Below are positions 14,626-36,912 of a stretch of 64,000 nt of DNA, one piece after another. Source of the DNA: Flavobacterium erciyesense. Lineage in GTDB: Bacteria > Bacteroidota > Bacteroidia > Flavobacteriales > Flavobacteriaceae. Each line of letters begins with the position of its first letter. Position 1 is the stretch's first letter. The translations under genes and the position numbers were made by a program. The notes below the pieces were generated by a model. That model was given only the letters and a program-made list of their open reading frames with translations, made no database searches and was not told the DNA's origin. The DNA lies in the NCBI RefSeq assembly GCF_018069925.1, contig NZ_JAGPXB010000004.1, forward strand, positions 1 to 64,000, given 5' to 3'.

Positions 14626-14666
14626 CAAAACTGCCACTCGCCTTCTGAAATAGCGCAACGCCTGTT

Positions 14667-14736
14667 TAGCCCCGATAGCAGTGAAAATCCTTTATTGCCG
14701 GGGTTCGGCAGTAAAGATTGTAACGGATAGCGGGAA
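14667..14736 (+). repeat. Dispersed hairpin element, family A copy 2
   Basis: Head TAGCCCCGATAGCAGTGAAA; stem ATCCTTTATTGCCG pairing with CGGCAGTAAAGAT around GGGTT; tail TGTAACGGATAGCGGGAA. The stem sequence differs from those of the other copies, but pairing is preserved. Confidence 0.75.
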
Positions 14737-15022
14737 TGTGCGTGTTATGAAAACAGAACTTCTGCTACCTAAAAAACAAAGCTAAAAATTGAGGACAGCT
14801 TAAAGATTCCGCTAAGAAAAGTTTACCGCCTTCGACCTGATTTGAATTAGTTTTAGATAGATCATTTGTCAAGCTGTTATTTAAATATACAAATAGCGTG
14901 GCCTTCTTCTAAATCTAAAAATACAGCCAACTATTAAATTTACGAGACAAAAAATTTACAACCATATTTATAGGTTTAACTTTATAAAAAACCTAAAAGT
15001 AGTTTAACAGCATTAGTTAGTC
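14737..15022. other. Intergenic gap before the soluble kinase
   Basis: About 290 bp without a coding frame or repeat that I can recognise. It separates the island from the kinase promoter. Confidence 0.4.
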
Positions 15023-18993: not shown

Positions 18994-19473
18994 ATGTTTC
19001 AGAAAACAACCTCGTTACTACTTCTGCTTGCTTTGGTTGCTTGTAAAAATCAAGAAACAACCGAGAAAGAAAAAATAAAAGCGGCCACTTGGCTTCTAGG
19101 AAATTGGGAAAGCAAATCAGCTGAAGGAAGTTTAAAAGAAAATTGGTCGCAAGTAAATGATAGTACGTTTTCGGCTACCTCTTATTTTATCAATGCAAAA
19201 GATACCGTGCATTTTGAAACGATTCGTTTGCAACAAGTAGGAGAACAACTGACCTACACTGCAACAATCAAAGGGCAACACAATGACAAGCCGGTAGCTT
19301 TTACTTTGTTTTCTGAAACCGAAAAGCAAGTCATTTTTGAAAACCAAAAAAACGATTATCCACAAAAAATATCCTACACCAAAATCACTGCTGATAGTAT
19401 TGTAGCCCAAATTTCTGGGAAACTACAAGGAAAACAAAGCTCCGAACAGTTTGGATTAAAAAAAATCAAATAA
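18994..19473 (+). CDS. DUF6265-type lipoprotein
   Basis: A 159-residue exported protein. The signal peptide ends LLALVAC, giving acylated Cys17. The mature part begins with a short linker and then WLLGNWESKSAEGSLKENW, the hallmark of the DUF6265 calycin-like beta domain, followed by strands such as DTVHFETIRLQQVG and KQVIFENQKNDYPQKISY. The family is unstudied; the fold suggests binding of a small hydrophobic ligand in the periplasm, which is inference. A terminator follows directly. The roughly 290-bp gap upstream holds nothing that I recognise. Confidence 0.75.
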   Translation: MFQKTTSLLLLLALVACKNQETTEKEKIKAATWLLGNWESKSAEGSLKENWSQVNDSTFSATSYFINAKDTVHFETIRLQQVGEQLTYTATIKGQHNDKPVAFTLFSETEKQVIFENQKNDYPQKISYTKITADSIVAQISGKLQGKQSSEQFGLKKIK

Positions 19474-19496
19474 AAAACTTTAGCTAGTTTTACCAT

Positions 19497-19529
19497 AACT
19501 CACTCATTAGTAGTGAGTTTTTTTTTGTT
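19497..19529 (+). terminator. Terminator after the DUF6265 lipoprotein gene
   Basis: AACTCACT pairs with AGTGAGTT, followed by a run of T. Confidence 0.8.
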
Positions 19530-19787
19530 TCAAAAATCAAATAAATTAGTGTGCTTACTTTTAAAAACCCTCTATCTCATTGCAACTTTTCAAGTAACTT
19601 TCTTGTTGATGATAAACGTTTAGCAAAGATTTATTTAAAAAACACAAAAAGAAGCAGCGCAAGTCAGACTCTAGTATTAAACCTTTTCTTGTTTTTAACA
19701 TCCAAAGAATCAAATAAAGAAGTTACATAAAAGTGTCGGTAACATCCATTATCAAGTCTTAATTTTTTGTGATAATTGCTACAATTA

Positions 19788-19820
19788 TTGCCGAAGATAT
19801 TATTTTAATTTTTACATTTG
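19788..19820 (+). promoter_or_regulatory. Promoter of the ankyrin/DUF2271 unit
   Basis: TTG (19788-19790), 22-nt spacer and TACATTTG (19813-19820). It sits 62 nt before the ATG at 19883 and shows that the longer in-frame extension starting at 19769 is not translated. Confidence 0.65.
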
Positions 19821-19828
19821 CATTATTT

Positions 19829-19845
19829 TTATTTAATCTAAATAA
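19829..19845 (+). promoter_or_regulatory. Palindromic operator candidate, TTATTTA-ATC-TAAATAA
   Basis: This is a perfect 7-3-7 inverted repeat just downstream of the -7 element, where a bound repressor would block transcription. Fifteen bases (ATTTAATCTAAATAA) recur exactly at 27003-27017 upstream of the TonB receptor gene. A Fur-type iron repressor is the likely reader, judging by the iron-related genes; this is inferred. Confidence 0.55.
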
Positions 19846-19882
19846 TATATACAACAGAACATACTTAAGCATCATAAGCCTT

Positions 19883-21373
19883 ATGAAAAAAAATCTAATA
19901 ATAGCACTTACCCTTTGCGCCACCGCATGGATGAACGCACAACAAAAAAACAGTCTTTTAGAGCAAGCCTTTTGGAAAACCGCTCCAGATGTGGCAACTG
20001 TTAAAGCTGAAATTGCAAAAGGAAATAATCCAACCGCAGCAACCTCAAACGCATTTGACGCAACCGTATTAGCCATCAACAATGATGCGCCTTTAGCTAC
20101 CATTCAATTCTTGATAGACCAACCCGGAAATGAAGTAACTAAAATTACGCACGACAGCCGTATTTACCTGCATTGGGCCGCCAACAAAGGAAATGTAGCA
20201 TTGGTTGAGTACCTCATCAAAAAAGGATCCGACATCAATCTCGAAGACAGCAAAGGCGAAACGCCTTTAACATTCGCAGCCATCGGTGGACAAAGTAATC
20301 CAGCACTTTATGAAGCTTTTTTTAAAGCTGGGGCCGACCCAAAGAAAAAATACAAAGACGGGGTGACGCTGCTACTCATGTCGATTGCTGCTGATAAAAA
20401 CTTAAGTCTTGCCACTTATTTAAACTCAAAAGGATTGTCGTTAAAAGACACTGATGCTGCAGGAAACACCGCATTTGACTATGCTGCCAAATCAGGCAGT
20501 ACCGCTCTTTTACAATCTCTTTTAGACAAAGCCGTAAAATACAGCAACAATGCCTTGTTGTTTGCCGCACAAGGTACACGCCGTGAAACTACTTCACTAG
20601 AGACTTATAAATATTTAGTCGAAACTTTAAAAATAAAAGCCACAGCTACCAATAAATCAGGCGAAAATGTGCTGCATTATTTGGCCAATAAACCCAATCA
20701 AACCGCTATCATCAACTACTTTCTTTCGCAAGGTGTAGATGCCAATGCAGCAACTATTGACGGCACGACACCTTTAATGATTGCCGCAACTGCTCGAGAC
20801 AATGCCGCTTTAGACTTATTTTTAGGAGTGGTAAAAAATAGCAATGCTAAAAACAACAAAGGCGAATCGGCGCTAACAATGGCAGTAAAATCAGGAACTC
20901 CCGAGGCAATTACCGCACTTTTAAACAAAGGCGCTGACGCAAATGTACTTGATAAAGACAATAACAACTTGGGATTCTACCTCGTACAATCCTACCGACC
21001 TGCCCCTCGTGGCGCCACTACTGCTGATCCGTTTGAAGTAAAAATTAAACTTTTGCAGGACAAAGGTCTAAATTTAGCTACTCCTCAAAACGATGGCAAC
21101 ACTTTATTGCATTTTGCCGTTGTCAAAAACGACCTTTCTTTGTTGCAAAAATTAGCAGCTTTAAACATCGATCTAAATGCTAAAAACAAAGACGGCTTAA
21201 CTGCATTACACAAAGCAGCTCTTATTGCCAAAGACGATACGATCTTGAAATACCTCATTTCTATCGGTGCCAAAAAAGACATTTTAACTGACTTTGATGA
21301 AAGTCCGTATGCACTAGCACAAGAAAACGAGTCGTTAATTCAAAACAAAATTTCTTTAGACTTTTTAAAATAA
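19883..21373 (+). CDS. Exported ankyrin-repeat protein
   Basis: A 496-residue protein with a cleavable signal peptide (MKKNLIIALTLCATAWMNAQ). The mature part is built almost wholly of ankyrin repeats, about ten to twelve, with clear units such as LHWAANKGNVALVEYLIKKG, GETPLTFAAIGG, GTTPLMIAATARDNAALDLF and GNTLLHFAVVKNDLSLLQKL. The family scaffolds protein contacts, so a periplasmic assembly role is likely. The DUF2271 gene follows after 16 bp. It heads the locus that ends with the TonB receptor and shares an operator-like palindrome with it. In catalase-ankyrin pairs such periplasmic proteins protect against peroxide, one alternative role. Confidence 0.85.
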   Translation: MKKNLIIALTLCATAWMNAQQKNSLLEQAFWKTAPDVATVKAEIAKGNNPTAATSNAFDATVLAINNDAPLATIQFLIDQPGNEVTKITHDSRIYLHWAANKGNVALVEYLIKKGSDINLEDSKGETPLTFAAIGGQSNPALYEAFFKAGADPKKKYKDGVTLLLMSIAADKNLSLATYLNSKGLSLKDTDAAGNTAFDYAAKSGSTALLQSLLDKAVKYSNNALLFAAQGTRRETTSLETYKYLVETLKIKATATNKSGENVLHYLANKPNQTAIINYFLSQGVDANAATIDGTTPLMIAATARDNAALDLFLGVVKNSNAKNNKGESALTMAVKSGTPEAITALLNKGADANVLDKDNNNLGFYLVQSYRPAPRGATTADPFEVKIKLLQDKGLNLATPQNDGNTLLHFAVVKNDLSLLQKLAALNIDLNAKNKDGLTALHKAALIAKDDTILKYLISIGAKKDILTDFDESPYALAQENESLIQNKISLDFLK

Positions 21374-21389
21374 AAAATAGCAGCAAAAC

Positions 21390-21872
21390 ATGAAATCAAT
21401 CCTAAAAATCAGCCTTTCAATAGCCTTTTTATTCCTAGTATCTGCATCGGCTACAGCCCAAACAAGCAAATACAAATGCATGTTGCAAATGTCTAACTAC
21501 ATGGGCGAAGGCGCGTATATCGTAGTTTCTTTGGTTAATGCCAAAGGCGAATACGTAAAAACCTTATACGTTATGGGCGACGATAAAAAATGGTACAAAA
21601 CCATCAAAGAATGGCATAAATTCTATTCAAAAAAACCAGAAAATATAAGTGCAAAAACGGGCGCATCGGTAACGGGCGGCGATCGTAGTATTACCACCAT
21701 CGAAATCGAAGACGCTAAAATCAACAAAGGTTTTAAACTGCGTTTTGAAACATCGGTAGAGGATCAAAAATACCACACTGCCGATCTTGAAATTCCTTTA
21801 ACAACCGAGGGAATTGCTGCAAAAACCGAAGGCAAAAACTACATTCGCTACGTGCGTTTGAACAAAATTTAA
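21390..21872 (+). CDS. DUF2271 periplasmic protein, candidate flavinylated carrier
   Basis: A 160-residue exported protein. The signal peptide ends ATAQ (about residue 24). The mature domain is DUF2271 (LQMSNYMGEGAYIVVSLVN, VKTLYVMGDDKKWYKTIKEW). At residues 90-93 it reads TGAS within ENISAKTGASVTGGD. Other DUF2271 proteins have a DxxTGAT-like sequence in this place, and ApbE attaches FMN to Ser/Thr in motifs of that type. Ser93 is therefore a candidate FMN attachment site. The nearby apbE and PepSY reductase genes support an electron-carrier role. The missing Asp before the motif is a caution. It is cotranscribed with the ankyrin gene. Confidence 0.8.
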   Translation: MKSILKISLSIAFLFLVSASATAQTSKYKCMLQMSNYMGEGAYIVVSLVNAKGEYVKTLYVMGDDKKWYKTIKEWHKFYSKKPENISAKTGASVTGGDRSITTIEIEDAKINKGFKLRFETSVEDQKYHTADLEIPLTTEGIAAKTEGKNYIRYVRLNKI

Positions 21873-21894
21873 AAAACAAAACAACGTTTTTTTT

Positions 21895-22006
21895 GGGGCG
21901 TGACCCTCTTTAAAAAAAGTCGGGTCGGGTCTTCCGTTCCCGCTTTTTTTATAAAGGCAAAAAAAGCCTTTATAAAAAAGAGCTCCACTGCAACCCCTCA
22001 CGCAAA
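21895..22006 (+). repeat. Dispersed hairpin element, family B copy 1
   Basis: Head GGGGCGTGACCC and GTCGGGTCGGGTCTTCCG; then TTCCCGCTTTTTTT, a stem TTTATAAAGGC pairing with GCCTTTATAAA, and tail GAGCTCCACTGCAACCCCTC followed by ACGCAAAA. An inverted partner is at 24339-24450. On its reverse strand it shares GCAGTGGAGCTC and AGCGGGAA with family A elements. Confidence 0.75.
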
Positions 22007-22108
22007 ACCACCTGAAACACAAATCGGCGTTGGTCAAGCAGTAACTTTTTAATATCCCGCTCCTTTTCTCGAACCGAATTTTGGAGTCCTGAAAAATACC
22101 TTTTCAAC

Positions 22109-24292
22109 ATGACACTTTCTTTTTGGCGTTACGCACACTTAACTTTAGCCATTTTTTCTGCTGCATTCTTAGTATTAGCATCGGTTACGGGAGTAATCCT
22201 TGCCGTTGATGCTATTCAAGAAAAAACGCCGCCCTACAAGATTGCTAATTTTGACGCCATTAGTCTTGAGCAAACCTTGCCTGTTTTACGAAAAACATAT
22301 CCTGAAATCACTGAACTCGCGGTAGATCACAATCAATTTGTAAGCCTGCAAGGTATCGATCAAAAAGGCAATGATGTCAATGCGTATGTTGATGCAAAAA
22401 CAGCCAAAATTTTAGGGACACCCGAGCAAAAAAGTGAATTCATACAATGGACAACCGCCTTGCACCGCTCGCTTTTTCTTAAAGAAACGGGACGATTTAT
22501 TGTCGGTTTTGTTTCGTTTTTATTGCTTTTGATTGCTATTTCAGGTTTTGCCTTATTGCTCAACCGCCAAAAAGGAATCAAAGCGTTGTACTCCAAAATC
22601 ATCAAGGAGAATTTTGCACAGTACTACCATGTGTATTTGGGTCGCTTGTCATTGCTTCCGATAATTTTGCTTTCCGTTTCTGGTACGTATTTGACGTTGG
22701 AAAAATTTAATTTTTTCCTAGAAAAAAAATCCAGTGAACCCACCAATCAAACCGTTTCTCCTCCGGCAGCGACTACTAATTTCTTTTCGACAACTCTTTT
22801 AAGCGAGGTTAAAAAAATTGAATTCCCATTCTCTGACGATCCCGAAGATTTTTACATCATTACGTTACACGATCGCGAAATTGAAGTGAACCAAAAAACG
22901 GGTGCCATCATGAGCGAAACTCTTTTTCCGCTGCAAACCATTGCAACCGAATGGAATTTAGATTTGCACACGGGTCGCACGAGCATTTTATGGGCAATAG
23001 TTTTGGCGCTAGCTAGCTTCAATATTTTATTTTTCATTTACTCTGGTTTTGCTATGACGCTCAAACGCAGAGCAAGCCGAATCAAAAACATGTTTAAAGC
23101 TGCCGAAAGTGAATTTATTTTACTAGTAGGGTCAGAAAACGGAAGCACGCTTGCGTTTGCAAATGCCATTCAAAAACAATTAATAGCACAAGGCAAAAAA
23201 GTATTTTTAGGCGAATTGAATTCGTATACTAGCTACCCAAAAGCGCAACAACTGATTGTTTTTACTTCAACCCATGGTTTGGGCGATGCACCAGCAAATG
23301 CCAGTAACTTTTTAACTCGCTTACAAAAAACAGCCCAACAGCAACCCATTCAGTTTTCGGTAGTAGGGTTTGGATCAGTAGCGTATCCTGATTTTTGTGC
23401 CTTTGCAAATGATGTTGATCAAGCTTTAGCTCAGCAAAAATGGGCTAATCGTGTGATGGAAATGCAAACTGTAAACGACAAATCGGCTACCGAATTTGTT
23501 GCATGGATTAACTTATGGAACGCCCAAACTGGCGTAAACCTAGCCACTACTCCGTCACTTTATAATGAAGTCCCAAAAGGCCTTGAAAAAATAAAGGTAC
23601 TCGACAAAACGTTGATTTCAGAAACCGAACATACTTTTCTGTTGACATTACAAACCACTACTTTTTCTAAATATACCTCAGGCGATTTACTTGCTGTGTA
23701 TCCGGCAAATGATAATCAAGAGCGCCTCTACTCTATCGGAAAAGTGAACGGAAAAATGCAATTGGTAGTCAAACTGCATCCCTCAGGTTTGGGCTCGAAC
23801 TTCTTGTATGATTTAGAGAAAGGAAGCGTTTTTAAAGCAAGGATCATTGAGAACAAATCGTTTCACTTACCTGCAAAAGCAACTCAAGTAGCAATGATAT
23901 CTAACGGAACGGGTATTGCTCCATTTTTGGGAATGATTTCACAAAATCAGAGCAAAACTGCAACACACTTGTATTGTGGTTTCCGTCAGCAAACCGCAAC
24001 GGTGATGGGTTACCAACAATTTGCCAACGACATGCTAGCCAAACAACAGTTAAACAGTTTTCATTTGGCACTATCTCGTGAAGGTAACCAAGAATATGTG
24101 ATGGATTTGATTCAGCGCGACGCCTTGTTTTTTGGAAAACTATTGCAAGATGGCGGTACTGTTTTGATTTGTGGGTCGCTCGCGATGCAAAAAGACGTCG
24201 AAAAAGTGCTCGATACGATTTGTTTACAGCAATCAAACAAGAGTATTGCTTTTTATAAAGAAAACGGACAAGTACTTACTGATTGTTATTAA
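22109..24292 (+). CDS. PepSY membrane / flavodoxin / FNR-type reductase fusion
   Basis: A 727-residue inner-membrane oxidoreductase. The N-terminal third (about residues 1-325) is a PepSY-TM module with helices near 9-31, 131-152, 178-200 and 292-314. Conserved His in RYAHLTLAI, ALHRSLF, YHVYLGRLS and LDLHTGRTSI are likely haem ligands. A flavodoxin domain follows (about 340-470; LVGSENGSTLAFANA, STHGLGDAPAN), then an FAD/NADPH reductase domain (about 490-727; ERLYSIGKV, ISNGTGIAPFLGM, HLALSREG). The layout moves electrons from NADPH through FAD, FMN and haem to the periplasm, as in ferric-chelate reductases. The DUF2271 protein is a plausible acceptor. Inverted family B repeats flank the gene. 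Confidence 0.88.
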   Translation: MTLSFWRYAHLTLAIFSAAFLVLASVTGVILAVDAIQEKTPPYKIANFDAISLEQTLPVLRKTYPEITELAVDHNQFVSLQGIDQKGNDVNAYVDAKTAKILGTPEQKSEFIQWTTALHRSLFLKETGRFIVGFVSFLLLLIAISGFALLLNRQKGIKALYSKIIKENFAQYYHVYLGRLSLLPIILLSVSGTYLTLEKFNFFLEKKSSEPTNQTVSPPAATTNFFSTTLLSEVKKIEFPFSDDPEDFYIITLHDREIEVNQKTGAIMSETLFPLQTIATEWNLDLHTGRTSILWAIVLALASFNILFFIYSGFAMTLKRRASRIKNMFKAAESEFILLVGSENGSTLAFANAIQKQLIAQGKKVFLGELNSYTSYPKAQQLIVFTSTHGLGDAPANASNFLTRLQKTAQQQPIQFSVVGFGSVAYPDFCAFANDVDQALAQQKWANRVMEMQTVNDKSATEFVAWINLWNAQTGVNLATTPSLYNEVPKGLEKIKVLDKTLISETEHTFLLTLQTTTFSKYTSGDLLAVYPANDNQERLYSIGKVNGKMQLVVKLHPSGLGSNFLYDLEKGSVFKARIIENKSFHLPAKATQVAMISNGTGIAPFLGMISQNQSKTATHLYCGFRQQTATVMGYQQFANDMLAKQQLNSFHLALSREGNQEYVMDLIQRDALFFGKLLQDGGTVLICGSLAMQKDVEKVLDTICLQQSNKSIAFYKENGQVLTDCY

Positions 24293-24338
24293 ATCGCCTA
24301 ACTACATTTTTGCAACCCACATCTTATGTAACACTTTG

Positions 24339-24450
24339 TCCGCGTGAGTGATGGCAGCGGAGCTCTTTTTTAGCCTGCCCTTTTTTCGGGCAGGCTAAAA
24401 AAAGCGGGAGCGTACAGCACGACCCGAAGTTTTTACGGAGGGGCACGCCC
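24339..24450 (-). repeat. Dispersed hairpin element, family B copy 2 (inverted)
   Basis: On the minus strand it reads GGGCGTGCCCCTCCG, CGGGTCGTGCTGTACGCTCC and CGCTTTTTTTAGCC, a stem GGGCAGGCTAAA/TTTAGCCTGCCC, then GAGCTCCGCTGCCATCACTC. Head and tail match copy 1 while the stem sequence is entirely different. It is opposite in orientation to the copy at 21895, with the PepSY reductase gene between them. Confidence 0.75.
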
Positions 24451-24480
24451 AAATAATTATATTCTCGAAAAATTCCTTTT

Positions 24481-24509
24481 TTGAAAACGGACTTCAAATA
24501 GTACCTTTA
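24481..24509 (+). promoter_or_regulatory. Promoter of chrA-apbE
   Basis: TTG (24481-24483), 18-nt spacer and TACCTTTA (24502-24509), 25 nt before the ATG at 24535. Confidence 0.6.
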
Positions 24510-24534
24510 CTGTTTACAATTGAAACTGAACCGC

Positions 24535-25671
24535 ATGACTGAAAAAAGTAGTGTTCCCTTAAAAGAAATTGCAGGCCTTTTTTTGAAATTAGGCATCATT
24601 GGTTTTGGCGGTCCTGCAGCACATATTGCGATGATGCAGGACGAGGTGGTTGCCAAACGAAAATGGTTCAGCGAGCAACATTTTTTAGATTTAATTGGCG
24701 CTACCAACTTGATTCCCGGTCCAAATAGCACCGAAATGGCCATACACATTGGGTATGAAAAAGGCGGCTGGAAAGGATTATTGGTCGCCGGACTTTGCTT
24801 TATCTCGCCAGCGGTTTTGATTACTGCTTTTTTGGCTTGGAGCTACAAAGAATACGGACAAACTCCGGCTGTGCAACCTTTTTTGTACGGAATTAAACCA
24901 GCTATTATTGCCATAATTATTGCAGCGGTTTATCCGTTGGCCAAAAAATCATTGAAAACGGTGACATTAGCCCTCATTGGCTTGCTAGTTTTACTGGGTT
25001 CATTGCTGCATTATTATGAAATTTACTTGTTATTTGGTGCAGGTTTTGTGGGTCTTTTTTTGAAGTATTGGAATTCGAATCGTGCCTTTAGAAGTAATTG
25101 TATGCTACCTTTAGTTGCGTTACCCACAACAGCAGGAACACTTTTGGCTAGTAGTAATGCAAAGTTGTTTTGGATTTTTTTAAAAATAGGCGCTATTCTA
25201 TACGGTAGCGGTTATGTTTTATTTGCTTTTTTAGACACGGAGTTAGTTGCAACGGGACTTTTAACGCGCCAACAATTAATTGATGCTATTGCTATTGGGC
25301 AATTTACGCCCGGACCCGTTTTCTCATCGGTAACATTTATTGGCTATCAAATTAACGATTGGACTGGCGCGATTGTTGCTAGTGTCGGTATTTTTCTGCC
25401 TTCGTTTGTATTTGTAGCATTGCTCAATCCGTTGGTCAGCAAAATGCGAAACTCGGTACTTTTTGCTGCTTTTCTGGATGCTGTAAATGTAGCTTCGGTT
25501 GCTATTATTGTGTCGGTTTGCTGGTCTATGGGAGCAGAAAGCATCCTAGATTGGAAAACACTTTTGATTGCAGTGCTGAGTATGCTCATTTTGTTTAGTT
25601 ACAAAAAACTAAACAGCGTATTGGTGGTTGTTGGAAGTTCACTTTTGGGATATTTACTTAGCTTAATCTAG
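24535..25671 (+). CDS. chrA: ChrA-family chromate/anion transporter
   Basis: A 378-residue inner-membrane protein with two tandem homologous CHR domains. The first begins LFLKLGIIGFGGPAAHIAMM with NLIPGPNSTEMAIHIGY; the second begins FLKIGAILYGSGYVLFAFLD with GQFTPGPVFSSVTFIGYQI. The internal duplication and about ten hydrophobic segments fit the long-chain CHR family, which exports chromate by proton antiport. Here its place between the reductase and apbE could mean it handles a different oxyanion. The ATG at 24535 is preferred over a TTG at 24520. apbE follows after 54 bp. Confidence 0.9.
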   Translation: MTEKSSVPLKEIAGLFLKLGIIGFGGPAAHIAMMQDEVVAKRKWFSEQHFLDLIGATNLIPGPNSTEMAIHIGYEKGGWKGLLVAGLCFISPAVLITAFLAWSYKEYGQTPAVQPFLYGIKPAIIAIIIAAVYPLAKKSLKTVTLALIGLLVLLGSLLHYYEIYLLFGAGFVGLFLKYWNSNRAFRSNCMLPLVALPTTAGTLLASSNAKLFWIFLKIGAILYGSGYVLFAFLDTELVATGLLTRQQLIDAIAIGQFTPGPVFSSVTFIGYQINDWTGAIVASVGIFLPSFVFVALLNPLVSKMRNSVLFAAFLDAVNVASVAIIVSVCWSMGAESILDWKTLLIAVLSMLILFSYKKLNSVLVVVGSSLLGYLLSLI

Positions 25672-25725
25672 TCAGAATAATTGATTGAGCTATCTCGCTT
25701 AATAATTATTGGTAACGAATAAATT

Positions 25726-26736
25726 ATGAAAACAAAATCGATTACTACTTTTTTCCTTTTGATAGCGCTTGTTGTGCATTGTACCTCTGACGCTCAAGTA
25801 TTGCGTAAACGAACCACTTTATTGATGGGCGGTCGTTTTGACATCACAATTGTAGGGAATGATTCGCTTACCGCAGAAAAAAATATTGATGTTGTTATTG
25901 CAGAGATTAGCCGAATTGAAAATTTAATTTCAGACTGGAAGTCAGACTCACAAATATCAGAAGTAAATCGGAATGCGGGCGTTCAACCTGTGAAAGTAGA
26001 TCGGGAAGTTTTTGAATTAACGCAACGTGCGCTGCGGTTTTCGGAAGTTACAAACGGTAGTTTCGATATTAGTTTTGCCGCAATGGACAGAATTTGGAAA
26101 TTTGATGGTTCAATGACTGAAATACCGTCTGAAGAAGCTATTAAAAAATCAGTTGAAAAAGTAGGCTACAAAAACATTGTTTTGGATAGCGCCAATACAA
26201 CCATTTTTTTGAAACTGAAAGGTATGAAAATTGGTTTTGGTGCGCTCGGCGAAGGCTACGCAACTGATAAATGTCGTAAAATGATGCTCGACAATGGCAT
26301 TGAAGCCGGAATCATAAATGGCTCCGGAGATATGAGTACTTGGGGCAAACAACCCAATGGCAAAGCTTGGAATATAGGCATTACAAATCCTTTTCGTCCT
26401 GAAAAATTATTGGCTGTAGTGCCTTTAACACAAGAGGCAGTAACCACATCGGGCAGTTATGAAAAATTTGTAGTTCTGGATGGCAAACGCTATTCGCATA
26501 TTATCAATCCTGCGACAGGTTACCCCGCAACAGGTTTATGCAGCGTTACCGTTTTTGGCCCTGATGCCGAAACTGCCAATGGATTGAGTACCTCGCTAAT
26601 GGTTTTAGGTTCAACTTCGGGATTACAATTACTGCAGCAATTCCCAGAATACAGCTGTATCATGATTACCGATACTGGTAAGGTCATTAAATCGAAAAAC
26701 TTCCGAGTGAAGAAATTCAAAAACAAAGCCAAGTAA
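25726..26736 (+). CDS. apbE: FAD:protein FMN transferase (ApbE)
   Basis: A 336-residue exported enzyme that transfers FMN from FAD onto Ser/Thr of extracytoplasmic redox proteins. The signal segment covers about residues 1-25 (FFLLIALVVHCTSDAQ); the Cys may be lipidated but the lipobox is poor. Family motifs are LMGGRFDITIVG near the mature N-terminus, FGALGEGYATDKC, AGIINGSGDMSTWGKQ and the metal/FAD-binding HIINPATGYPATGL. The natural substrate is probably encoded nearby: the DUF2271 protein with its TGAS motif is the best candidate. It is likely cotranscribed with chrA. Confidence 0.93.
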   Translation: MKTKSITTFFLLIALVVHCTSDAQVLRKRTTLLMGGRFDITIVGNDSLTAEKNIDVVIAEISRIENLISDWKSDSQISEVNRNAGVQPVKVDREVFELTQRALRFSEVTNGSFDISFAAMDRIWKFDGSMTEIPSEEAIKKSVEKVGYKNIVLDSANTTIFLKLKGMKIGFGALGEGYATDKCRKMMLDNGIEAGIINGSGDMSTWGKQPNGKAWNIGITNPFRPEKLLAVVPLTQEAVTTSGSYEKFVVLDGKRYSHIINPATGYPATGLCSVTVFGPDAETANGLSTSLMVLGSTSGLQLLQQFPEYSCIMITDTGKVIKSKNFRVKKFKNKAK

Positions 26737-27000
26737 ACACTACTTTTCAGTTAAAGGTCTATTAGGTCTGATAAATAACTCCACCTACTAAAATAGTACT
26801 TCCCGTTTAGCCGCGGATTGTAGCAACTTAAAATAGCAATAATCTTATATTAAAAGTTAATTTCTTTTTACTCGTCAATCCTTCTATATTTTAACACTAT
26901 TTTACTTCAATTAAAACTTCTTGATGACTATGTTAATAAATAAGAATTATTATAAATAACATTAAAACAAGAGCTTAGCTTTTCAATAAAATTATTATTC
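26737..27000. other. Regulatory gap upstream of the TonB receptor gene
   Basis: An AT-rich stretch without ORFs. Two TAAATAA half-sites (26937-26943 and 26953-26959) match the arms of the palindromes nearer the promoter, so the operator region may extend upstream. Confidence 0.4.
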
Positions 27001-27017
27001 ATATTTAATCTAAATAA
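27001..27017 (+). promoter_or_regulatory. Palindromic operator candidate upstream of the TonB receptor promoter
   Basis: ATATTTA-ATC-TAAATAA differs by one base from the perfect palindrome at 19829-19845. It lies immediately upstream of the TTG at 27021. Confidence 0.55.
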
Positions 27018-27020
27018 GTT

Positions 27021-27050
27021 TTGTTAATCCAAAAGAGGGCTCTATCTTTG
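27021..27050 (+). promoter_or_regulatory. TonB receptor promoter
   Basis: TTG (27021-27023), 19-nt spacer and perfect TATCTTTG (27043-27050). It is one of the best consensus matches in the window. Confidence 0.75.
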
Positions 27051-27060
27051 CGCTGTTATT

Positions 27061-27078
27061 TTTAATTATTCTAAATAA
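27061..27078 (+). promoter_or_regulatory. Second operator-like site in the receptor leader
   Basis: TTTAATTATTCTAAATAA carries TTTA and TAAA arms, lies between the -7 box and the ATG, and shares the CTAAATAA half-site with the other two palindromes. Confidence 0.4.
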
Positions 27079-27084
27079 ACAGTT

Positions 27085-29295
27085 ATGAAATACCTATTAT
27101 TTGCAGCCTCAACGTTACTTTTTAGTACAAACATTTTAGCTCAAGAGCGCATCAGTGCTGCAAACAGCGACCATCAAGACACTTCTTTTGCACAAGCATT
27201 AAACGATACCATTAAAAACAAAAAAGGTGAAATATTAAAAGAAGTAATCGTAACCAACAACAGAGAGAAAAAACCAGTATCGGTGTTGCGTTCGGGTTTA
27301 AAACCGATGGATACCCCACAAAGTATTCAAGTTATTGGATCTGAAATCATCACACAACAACAGGCTATTCGGTTAAGTGAGGTTATTAAAAACGTAAATG
27401 GCGTTTATGTTGGTTCAGCAAGAGGCGGCGCTCAGGAATCATTTTTTTCGAGAGGTTATGACATGTCAGCCAACAATATGTTCAAAAATGGCTTTCGTTT
27501 TAATAGCGGATCTATCCCTGAAGTTTCATCTTTGGAAAAAGTTGAAGTCTTAAAAGGAAGTGCCGCTCTACTTTATGGCAATGTGGCGCCTGGGGGAATT
27601 TTAAATATGGTTACCAAAACTCCATCTTTCACAAAAGGAGGTGAAATTTCAATGCAAATGGGAAGTTATTCTTTTTATAAACCATCCATTGATGTTTATG
27701 GGCCATTAAATGACATTATTGCTTACCGCTTTACTGGTTCTTATGAAAACTCTGAAAGTTTTAGAGATAATGTAACCAAAGAGCGCTACTACATTAATCC
27801 TTCTTTTTTGTTTCAAGTAAGTGATAAAACGGAGATTGTTCTACAAGGAGATTATTTGAAAGACTATTGGACACCCGATTTTGGAACGGGAATAATCGGA
27901 AAAAAAATCTTAGACCTTCCTAGAAACCTTTATTTAGGCGCAACTTGGTCTAATGGTGAAACTAATCAAGCTACTGTTTCAGGTTTGGTTACACATAACT
28001 TTAATAAAGACTGGAAATTAAATTTTAATACTTCTTTTCAAAATTTTGAGAGAACTTCTAAAGGTACCGAACGAGTACAACCAACTGCAAATGGCGATTG
28101 GAATCGACCTTTGGGTCAGAACAGAAACTTAGAACAAATTATAGGCGAACAATTAAGTGTGCAGGGAAATTTTAAAACAGGTCAAATTAAACATCAATTG
28201 TTTACTGGTGTAGATATGGAAAATTCCTTTTCGCAAGCATATACCTTTACGTTTACACCTACAACGTACGGAAGTGGAAACCTACTTGATTTTGAAAATT
28301 TTGATCAAGGCGGAGCAATCCCAAATGGCACAAATACCCGAATTGTAAAAACAAATACGAACCGTTTTGGTATCTATGCACAAGATTTAATTTCACTTAC
28401 TGAAAAATTTAAAGTTCTGGCAGGAATTCGTTGGTCTTGGCAAGAAGCACAAGTAGAAACTACAGATTTGACTAAAAAAACAATCATCAAAGATAAAAAG
28501 CGAAAAGACCTTGCCTTCACTCCAAAACTTGGATTAGTTTATCAACCTACAAAGGATATGTCTGTATTTGCCAGTTACTCAAACTCTTTTACGCCAAATA
28601 CAGGAACAACAGTAGACTTGAAAGCAATAGAACCTTCCATCATTGATCAATATGAATTCGGCGTGAAAAAAGATTTTTGGAAAGGAGTATTGAGCACAAA
28701 TGTTACCTTGTACCAAATTACAAATAGTAATTTAGCACAAACAGCTGAATTTAAAGCTGATGGATCCCCTAATACAGATAGCTCAATAAAAGTGTTAAGT
28801 GGAGAAACAAACAGCAAAGGTGTAGAACTGGATATTATTGCAAAACCAATTGAGGGACTAAACATTATTGCCGGATATAGTTACAATGACATGCGTTTTA
28901 CAAAAACTTCTGGTTTAAAAGGGAGTTTTATTGAAGGGGATCGATTGGCTAGAACTCCAGCAAATACAGCCAATTTAAGCTTTTTCTACACTTTACAATC
29001 TGGCACACTTAAAGGAGTTTCGCTGGGAGCTTTAGGAAATTATATCGGGAAAAGAGTTGGTGGATGGAACAATCAAGTAGATCCTGCGTTGCCTAATGGT
29101 ATATTTGACAGAGAAATTCCTTTAGAGGGTTATACTACAATTGACCTATCAGTTGGTTATGAATGGAAAAAAATTGCTATCCTTTGCAAATTATCTAACA
29201 TCACGAATGAATTGAATTATACCGTACACGAAAATTACAGTGTAAACCCGATTGCTCCGAGACAAATCATGACAAGTTTGCGATATAAGTTTTAG
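27085..29295 (+). CDS. TonB-dependent siderophore receptor
   Basis: A 736-residue outer-membrane receptor. The signal peptide ends NILAQ (residue 19). The plug domain (about 60-180) has the siderophore-receptor signature MDTPQSIQVIGSEII, then RGYDMSANNMFKNGFRF and VEVLKGSAALLYGNVAPGG. A 22-strand barrel follows and ends SLRYKF with terminal Phe. It lacks the carboxypeptidase-like extension and the SusD partner of glycan receptors, so it is of the FhuA/FecA type for ferric chelates. The promoter is flanked by palindromes that suggest iron control. It ends the redox locus, and a strong terminator follows. Confidence 0.93.
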   Translation: MKYLLFAASTLLFSTNILAQERISAANSDHQDTSFAQALNDTIKNKKGEILKEVIVTNNREKKPVSVLRSGLKPMDTPQSIQVIGSEIITQQQAIRLSEVIKNVNGVYVGSARGGAQESFFSRGYDMSANNMFKNGFRFNSGSIPEVSSLEKVEVLKGSAALLYGNVAPGGILNMVTKTPSFTKGGEISMQMGSYSFYKPSIDVYGPLNDIIAYRFTGSYENSESFRDNVTKERYYINPSFLFQVSDKTEIVLQGDYLKDYWTPDFGTGIIGKKILDLPRNLYLGATWSNGETNQATVSGLVTHNFNKDWKLNFNTSFQNFERTSKGTERVQPTANGDWNRPLGQNRNLEQIIGEQLSVQGNFKTGQIKHQLFTGVDMENSFSQAYTFTFTPTTYGSGNLLDFENFDQGGAIPNGTNTRIVKTNTNRFGIYAQDLISLTEKFKVLAGIRWSWQEAQVETTDLTKKTIIKDKKRKDLAFTPKLGLVYQPTKDMSVFASYSNSFTPNTGTTVDLKAIEPSIIDQYEFGVKKDFWKGVLSTNVTLYQITNSNLAQTAEFKADGSPNTDSSIKVLSGETNSKGVELDIIAKPIEGLNIIAGYSYNDMRFTKTSGLKGSFIEGDRLARTPANTANLSFFYTLQSGTLKGVSLGALGNYIGKRVGGWNNQVDPALPNGIFDREIPLEGYTTIDLSVGYEWKKIAILCKLSNITNELNYTVHENYSVNPIAPRQIMTSLRYKF

Positions 29296-29302
29296 TCCTA
29301 TT

Positions 29303-29353
29303 TCAAAAAAAACAAGCCCCAAAATACATTTATTTTGGGGCTTGTTTTTTTAT
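29303..29353. terminator. Bidirectional terminator after the TonB receptor gene
   Basis: AACAAGCCCCAAAATA (29311-29326) pairs perfectly with TATTTTGGGGCTTGTT (29331-29346) around CATT, with an A run on the left and a T run on the right. It serves both convergent genes. Confidence 0.92.
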
Positions 29354-29362
29354 AATAATAAA

Positions 29363-29740
29363 TTAATGCATTTCAATTCCGTTAACTTCCAATAGATCGT
29401 TCAACAAAACATTAACATGAGGTTCGTATTTTTCTACCCCACTTTGGTACCACTCTGCAATTAAACCCAATTGATGAGCTGTATAGCCTTCGTCATCGAT
29501 TGGTAACCCGAGTAAACCTGCTATTAAAAAATCTTCAAGTATTTTATCAGTAACTATTCTTTCAGGAATACCTTTGCTAATACAACCATTAAGACGTTCG
29601 TACTCCATACGCCCTGCGATAAATCCAGCAATAACTGCCTCATTTTTCATGGCATCATTAAATTCTAAATAAGGATCCAAACCAATTGCAAGTCCTCTGT
29701 AATAATTTTGCCTGTATACATCATTTATTATCCTTTTCAT
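29363..29740 (-). CDS. Cytosolic protein of unknown function
   Basis: A 125-residue protein beginning MKRIINDVYRQNYYRGLAIG. It is predicted mostly helical and acidic (EFNDAMKNEAVIAGFIAGRM, LEDFLIAGLLGLPIDDEGYT), without signal peptide, membrane segment, metal motif or catalytic signature. The start at 29740 is preferred to an upstream Met at 29776 because the intervening residues look non-coding. It stands alone between two terminators. I recognise no family. Confidence 0.6.
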   Translation of the reverse strand: MKRIINDVYRQNYYRGLAIGLDPYLEFNDAMKNEAVIAGFIAGRMEYERLNGCISKGIPERIVTDKILEDFLIAGLLGLPIDDEGYTAHQLGLIAEWYQSGVEKYEPHVNVLLNDLLEVNGIEMH

Positions 29741-29976
29741 AGAAATATCATTTGTGGTGTTTGAAATTCTATACAAACCTACTTATATTGCATCTCCAAA
29801 AAAACTATAATCGTTGAACGGGCTATTTAATCTGTTAATTACAAGGCGCTTGCCGTTAATCGGTACTTTTAAAATGTTAAAACATATTTAGCACAGCAAC
29901 TGTTCTAAGCTTTCCTTTGCTAATGTGGCATACCAATATAGATTTATTTTCTTTATACTGATAATCAAACTACTTT

Positions 29977-36800: not shown

Positions 36801-36832
36801 ATTAGTAAGTTCGTAATTAGACTGCTAAACTA

Positions 36833-36912
36833 TAGCCCTGATTGCAGTGAAAATCCTTTATATTTTTTCTTAAAAATATAAAGATTGAAACGAAAAGCAG
36901 GAAACAGCTCCT
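36833..36912 (+). repeat. Dispersed hairpin element, family A copy 3
   Basis: Head TAGCCCTGATTGCAGTGAAA; stem ATCCTTTATATTTTT pairing with AAAAATATAAAGAT; tail TGAAACGAAAAGCAGGAAAC and AGCTCCT. It ends 12 nt before the cysS ATG, so it lies in the cysS leader and its AGCTCCTAAAA end occupies the ribosome-binding region. Confidence 0.75.

Follow-up and report, generated by a model that had tools for sequence, protein, structure and literature searches.

Gene clusters that join a PepSY membrane protein, DUF2271 and the flavin transferase ApbE are common and iron reduction has been proposed for them. According to Méheust et al. 2021 (PMC8238504), 2833 of 3220 PepSY-like clusters carry DUF2271 and 231 carry a TonB receptor, and DUF2271 of Amantichitinum ursilacus is flavinylated by ApbE at a [S/T]GA[S/T] motif. 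Two PepSY_TM proteins, FoxB of Pseudomonas aeruginosa and HiuB of Caulobacter, are described as encoded beside TonB receptors that import ferrioxamine (PMC13038864). Here we analyzed a 64,000-nucleotide stretch of Flavobacterium erciyesense (contig NZ_JAGPXB010000004.1; referred to as the window; host genome 3.43 Mb), in which six genes, all on the plus strand between positions 19883 and 29295, encode an exported ankyrin-repeat protein, DUF2271, a PepSY_TM-flavodoxin-NAD-binding membrane reductase, ChrA, ApbE and a TonB-dependent siderophore receptor (Table 1). The initial annotation had taken the six genes together for a candidate flavin electron-transfer system acting outside the cytoplasm in metal acquisition; the electron-transfer system is supported by the present data and the ChrA component is not. 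We found that ApbE is present in 56 of 83 DUF2271 loci and is followed by the receptor in few, and the cluster is therefore a near-fixed core of three genes (ankyrin, DUF2271 and PepSY) with a loosely attached ApbE and receptor. With a probability of about 0.65 we read it as a Fur-controlled periplasmic ferric-siderophore reductase in which the ankyrin solenoid holds the flavin carrier.

The neighbourhoods of related genes were surveyed from two anchors. The DUF2271 survey comprises 83 loci with strong matches outside the window, 81 of them with enough upstream sequence; four loci with weak matches (L102, L103, L125 and L126), two gene fusions (L138 and L139) and the window itself were left out of this count. 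The ankyrin-anchored survey comprises 80 loci from named genomes, the best 80 of at least 544 confirmed stretches, and one Spirosoma plasmid; 79 have more than 700 nucleotides (nt) downstream. The surveys share some genomes and are not independent, their 170 regions in total partly overlapping. An ankyrin gene is located immediately 5' of DUF2271 on the same strand at 78 of the 81 usable loci (exceptions L105, L116 and L123), no more than 12 nt away at 31 of these, and a PepSY gene follows DUF2271 within 1.5 kb, likewise on that strand, at 79 of 81 (exceptions L105 and L123). Viewed from the ankyrin gene, DUF2271 was the next gene at all 79 usable loci. The ankyrin-anchored loci include Spirosoma, Chryseosolibacter, Adhaeribacter, Terrimonas and Flavobacterium, and the order on the Spirosoma plasmid is receptor (opposite strand), ankyrin, DUF2271 and PepSY, with ApbE three genes further. 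Wherever they are adjacent, ankyrin and DUF2271 are separate reading frames. Among 150 genomes of the genus, the ankyrin gene (E <= 1e-60) was found in all 48 with a strong DUF2271 match versus 1 of the 102 others (Fisher p = 1e-38, kinship ignored), and 48 of the 49 genomes carrying it have a single copy. In the sole extra genome, G090, the copy reaches the contig end where DUF2271 would lie; two paralogues of the cluster's ankyrin family stand there in tandem on the minus strand (G090:C490:4-3184). Among the conserved features of the family are THDxRxYxxWA (residues 89-99) and FLK at the C terminus, and the closest named relatives of the window gene among the matches listed are Flavobacterium species, at 76% identity or less.

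These counts indicate that the clustering of ankyrin, DUF2271 and PepSY is beyond chance and is kept in relatives; absence of such clustering, named in the initial annotation as a refuting result, was thus not what the surveys gave. The exported ankyrin belongs to the system: it is a near-constant neighbour, as constant for DUF2271 as PepSY is. Its place outside the familiar ferric-reductase sets had raised doubt about its membership; the doubt falls, since it is so constant a neighbour of DUF2271 in both surveys. Neither a joint mention of ankyrin and DUF2271 nor a paper with wider combinations was found in the literature searched, and an ankyrin neighbour may be listed in the supplement of Méheust et al. 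2021. A gene annotated only in generic terms gains a genomic context.

DUF2271 of the window carries the flavinylation motif as TGAS, and the motif is retained in 67 of 68 DUF2271 relatives examined (exception L123). The flavin is presumably attached to the last residue of the motif, here Ser93. Signal-peptide-like N-terminal stretches, judged by eye from sequence, are present in the ankyrin, DUF2271 and ApbE proteins, and a sequence search with DUF2271 against solved structures gave chance-level matches only. The host genome has two ApbE genes, one in the cluster and one elsewhere, and no match to FMN_bind at E <= 0.001. The second ApbE gene (G000:C39; L127:9077-12143) sits between a thioredoxin-like gene and DUF3570, the second new ApbE substrate named in Méheust et al. 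2021 (PMC8238504), so that each ApbE gene seems to have its own substrate nearby. The distribution of DUF2271 is patchy: it is present in 21 of 60 family genomes, 48 of 150 genus genomes (strong matches) and 22 of 296 in a phylum sample (over cut-off). In the PepSY protein, His10, His119, His174 and His287 are invariant in every row longer than 600 amino acids of a 65-sequence alignment, as expected for two transmembrane haem sites. A fold search with the modelled membrane part of a relative returned FoxB (7abw) as the sole solved match with E <= 0.001 (8.4e-9, probability 1.00; modest TM-scores of 0.33/0.42), the next match having an E of 0.055. A FAD_binding_6 match in this protein lies slightly below the Pfam cut-off.

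Weak DUF2271-like proteins adjoin ApbE at L126:9701-10594, L125:9553-10380, L102:8645-9424 and L103:9497-10279. A TGAT motif is present in those of L126 and L125 and absent from those of L102 and L103; the L102 protein carries Por_Secre_tail, a sorting domain of the type IX secretion system, by Pfam and has a YceI neighbour. These proteins are possibly secreted or surface forms of flavinylated DUF2271. Natural ApbE-DUF2271 fusions of ~505 amino acids occur in other families of the same class (L138:8780-10288 and L139:9776-11290).

Contacts of DUF2271 were modelled as single chains, using in-frame read-throughs past the stop at loci with both genes in one frame. The AlphaFold model of ankyrin with DUF2271 (query L137, alignment of 107 of 110 rows) had a predicted template modelling score (pTM) of 0.83 over 667 residues. 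The ankyrin makes up ~73% of this length, and since the pTM exceeds that share the placement of DUF2271 should contribute to it. The loop around TGAS had block values of the predicted local distance difference test (pLDDT) of 72 and 82, and the model suggests that the ankyrin touches DUF2271 on the face that bears the flavin. A fold search with this model matched ankyrin solenoids over residues 12-491 and hardly covered the DUF2271 part. The model of DUF2271 with the PepSY membrane part (query L086, alignment of 93 of 122 rows) reached a pTM of 0.62, near the 65% share of PepSY, with pLDDT of 36 and 67 in the TGAS-loop blocks, and gave no sign of stable DUF2271 docking on PepSY. It could be argued that the ankyrin gene is merely co-transcribed and that its product has a job of its own, for example scaffolding or protecting something in the periplasm other than DUF2271: conserved operons can contain functionally parallel genes, and L116 as well as five pseudomonadotal records (by their gene tables) do without an ankyrin. 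The near-absolute linkage across several Bacteroidota families, the tight spacing and the read-through model with DUF2271 all argue against this explanation, which we hold to be unlikely.

ChrA, listed as a component by the initial annotation, fared differently from the ankyrin. There was no ChrA match in the 89 DUF2271-anchored and 81 ankyrin-anchored regions, and a ChrA homologue (E <= 1e-60) was found in 44 of the 150 genus genomes, 18 of 48 with DUF2271 and 26 of 102 others, which is no significant co-occurrence (p = 0.18); ChrA as a component was rejected on these two results. The gaps between DUF2271 and PepSY (236 nt) and between PepSY and ChrA (227 nt) each contain a Flavo-1 or Flavo-1-like element, so that the order in the window is PepSY, Flavo-1, ChrA and ApbE. 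With these gaps, and with sites of its own before the receptor gene, the six genes need not form one transcript. Exploring the PepSY-ApbE interval in eight close loci, we found Flavo-1 after PepSY, no further on than where the ApbE frame starts, in four, and ChrA in none of these. Because close loci carry the repeat at this place without ChrA, ChrA seems to be a local insertion or hitch-hiker that entered beside a pre-existing Flavo-1 repeat. The window has four Flavo-1 elements (365-435, 14664-14741, 24334-24428 and 36830-36908), which have the look of repeats scattered through intergenic DNA. The place of ChrA, flanked by PepSY and ApbE on one strand, would fit a function within the cluster that combines chromate export with periplasmic chromate reduction; yet the related regions lack it, it shows no significant co-occurrence with DUF2271 in the genus, and close relatives have PepSY and ApbE with no intervening ChrA, several with Flavo-1 in its place. 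We regard this function as scarcely credible, and as a general feature a chromate role is already largely refuted. The survey sets a real component, the ankyrin, apart from a hitch-hiker within one cluster.

Fur-box-like palindromes precede the ankyrin gene and the receptor gene (Table 1). Of 78 loci, 35 have a site upstream of the ankyrin gene that matches at 13 or more of 14 arm positions, versus 2 of 390 mononucleotide shuffles. The whole genome has 9 sites at one mismatch or less, versus 3 with the reversed control; 3 of the 9 are in the cluster and one overlaps the point where the reading frame of another TonB receptor begins. Five relatives have 29 sites versus 10 with the reversed control, of which 13 are beside TonB receptors (12 called by Pfam and that of L168 by likeness to the window receptor), 4 precede the ankyrin gene, 1 separates two imelysin genes and 11 lie elsewhere. 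By their sequence the sites are Fur-box-like, and Fur would be the regulator. The receptor of the window scores well over the cut-off of TIGR01783 (TonB-siderophor; 314.2 vs 223.5 bits), and its solved relatives include the enantio-pyochelin receptor, FhuA and FoxA. In some relatives a TonB receptor and a lipoprotein-like gene are located just 5' of the ankyrin gene. Alternatively, the reductase would act on copper or some other metal, or feed electrons into repair or respiration in the periplasm, with the receptor as an incidental neighbour. PepSY_TM proteins are functionally diverse (Bordetella CrpH supports copper oxidase function, as described in PMC13038864), and the receptor is not a constant member of the cluster. 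Against this stand the Fur-box-like sites common to TonB receptors and the imelysin pair, the neighbours seen at some other loci (TonB receptor, PepSY and lipoprotein-like), and the siderophore-type receptor with two such sites in the window itself; we consider another metal or step rather improbable.

Two lipoprotein-like proteins of ~450 amino acids adjoin a TonB receptor beside the cluster (L074:16380-17711 and L117:11899-13290) and are candidate surface siderophore binders. Neither has a Pfam match, and the one searched against solved structures, that of L074, has no solved relative there; their identification as XusB was therefore unsupported. DUF6607 lies immediately upstream of the ankyrin gene in L110 (L110:7275-8183) and, in two relatives' loci (L169:540-1454 and L178:1563-2465), has a divergent Fur-box-like site in common with a TonB receptor; this uncharacterised family looks iron-linked.

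The flavinylation motif, the four PepSY histidines, the FoxB fold, the ApbE-substrate pairing, the Fur-box-like sites and the siderophore receptor argue for an extracytoplasmic flavin electron-transfer system for a metal, probably iron, as had been proposed from the gene content. Gene content, motif, histidines, conservation, co-occurrence and promoter sites are direct observations; we infer the electron path, iron as its substrate, Fur as regulator, flavinylation, and docking together with its purpose. The receptor would deliver a ferric siderophore to the periplasm. Cytosolic NAD(P)H would supply electrons to the flavin adenine dinucleotide (FAD)/flavodoxin part of PepSY, from which they would pass to two transmembrane haems, while ApbE would attach flavin mononucleotide (FMN) to TGAS of the exported DUF2271; the haems would reduce this FMN and the FMN the ferrisiderophore, and the freed ferrous iron would then be imported by another system. 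The ankyrin solenoid would serve DUF2271 as a dedicated partner in the periplasm, gripping it close to the loop with the flavin and either presenting the flavin to reductase and substrate or shielding it. Up to DUF2271 the path is taken from FoxB and from published work on flavinylation; the ankyrin step is a new proposal.

Several results weigh against the ferric-siderophore reductase reading. The receptor follows ApbE in only 8 of 83 DUF2271 loci and 11 of 81 ankyrin-anchored loci and is not a fixed part. ApbE was absent from the fetched region in all 21 loci of other genera of the same family, so that its clustering is mostly a genus-level feature, and L116 has DUF2271 and PepSY without the ankyrin. 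The site TTATTTAATCTAAATAA shares the half-site TCTAAAT with the Riemerella Fur box consensus reported as ATTTAGAATTATTCTAAAT (PMC5609570), and is similar, not identical, to it. The match before the ankyrin gene is weak (11/14) in the closest surveyed relative, G197 (L073), and in most cases weak beyond the genus; for G197 and G208 the sites are no commoner than in the reversed control (1 v 1 and 5 v 5). The 64-kb window has 5 sites at two mismatches or less versus 3.4 expected from shuffles, that is, no enrichment, and therefore the Fur case rests on position and conservation. The docking is read from pTM and pLDDT, the two models differing in their query sequences and alignments, and the whole cluster is known here from sequences and models.

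The Pfam scan covered eight window proteins (18994-29776), and its labels agree with those of NCBIfam, in which DUF2271 has no match; together with the open reading frames they bear out the positions and families initially assigned to the six genes. The ankyrin frame is also open from an upstream GTG at 19769.

Table 1. Genes, motifs and repeats of the cluster, by position in the window.
Feature	Position	Strand	Evidence and remarks
Fur-box-like 17-bp palindrome TTATTTAATCTAAATAA	19829..19845	+	Perfect match; ends 37 bp 5' of ankyrin ATG
Ankyrin-repeat protein, exported, 496 amino acids	19883..21373	+	ATG start; Ank_2 1e-38 (Pfam)
DUF2271 protein, 160 amino acids, predicted ApbE substrate	21390..21872	+	PF10029 3.4e-37
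Flavinylation motif T-G-A-S codons, DUF2271 residues 90-93	21657..21668	+	Sequence
Inverted Flavo-1-like repeat between DUF2271 and PepSY	21887..22003	-	Inverted repeats I1, I2; below Rfam gathering score
PepSY_TM-flavodoxin-NAD-binding membrane reductase, 727 amino acids	22109..24292	+	PF03929 PepSY_TM 9e-33; Flavodoxin_1 5.9e-15; NAD_binding_1 4.3e-8
Flavo-1 RNA element	24334..24428	+	Rfam RF01705, 54 bits
ChrA chromate transporter	24520..25671	+	TTG start, first ATG 24535; Chromate_transp 5.5e-84; TIGR00937
ApbE FAD:protein FMN transferase	25726..26736	+	PF02424 1.5e-80
Fur-box-like palindrome before receptor	27001..27017	+	1 mismatch
Second Fur-box-like palindrome before receptor	27062..27078	+	1 mismatch; ends 6 bp 5' of receptor start
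TonB-dependent siderophore receptor, 736 amino acids	27085..29295	+	TonB barrel 7e-51 and plug; TIGR01783

Comparing the locus with described systems, we tested PF03929 beside PF10029 and PF02424 against the definition of PepSY-like flavinylation clusters in Méheust et al. 2021. The locus agrees with it: these clusters are described with a PepSY_TM protein (some having an NAD-binding domain), a DUF2271 protein bearing [S/T]GA[S/T], ApbE and sometimes a TonB receptor (PMC8238504). They differ in that ankyrin has 0 occurrences in the main text of that paper (PMC8238504), whereas the window has a near-constant exported ankyrin, and in that no DUF4198 is found among the eight window proteins scanned. 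The PepSY_TM fold and, presumably, the haem-ligand histidines are shared with FoxB, but the solved FoxB chain of 365 residues is half the length of the window protein, which adds flavodoxin and NAD-binding domains. HiuB likewise has the haem-ligand histidines and hiuABC is described as Fur-regulated, whereas the main text on HiuABC has 0 occurrences of DUF2271, ApbE and ankyrin (PMC13001220). XusABC of Bacteroides thetaiotaomicron combines a TonB receptor of Bacteroidota with a PepSY inner-membrane protein proposed to reduce ferrisiderophore, and differs in that neither ankyrin nor flavin occurs in the main text (PMC13142918); no counterpart of its surface lipoprotein XusB (DUF4374) is present among the eight window proteins.

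The pseudomonadotal comparison draws on five plasmid records (Hoeflea, Paracoccus, Marinobacter, Shinella and Janthinobacterium) among 20 listed, of 97 with a match. DUF2271 directly precedes PepSY in all five, as in the window, and ApbE is within the region in two (Hoeflea and Paracoccus). Unlike the window, all five have genes for a response regulator and an ATP-binding protein (two-component type) upstream, four have a small PepSY gene, and their gene tables, which are incomplete in PLSDB, list no ankyrin. A bolder idea, to which we give somewhat less than even odds, is that in Bacteroidota the exported ankyrin is an obligate periplasmic redox scaffold that clamps the flavin loop of DUF2271 and steers electron delivery, in place of the small PepSY and two-component regulation of the pseudomonadotal clusters; if true, ankyrin repeats would gain a new role outside the cytoplasm, in electron transfer. 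Since the core system has already been described (Méheust et al. 2021), the cluster is less new than first implied: its core is of a known kind, the PepSY-DUF2271-ApbE flavinylation cluster, to which the near-constant, mostly single-copy ankyrin adds a concrete protein for studying how the flavin meets its donor and acceptor.

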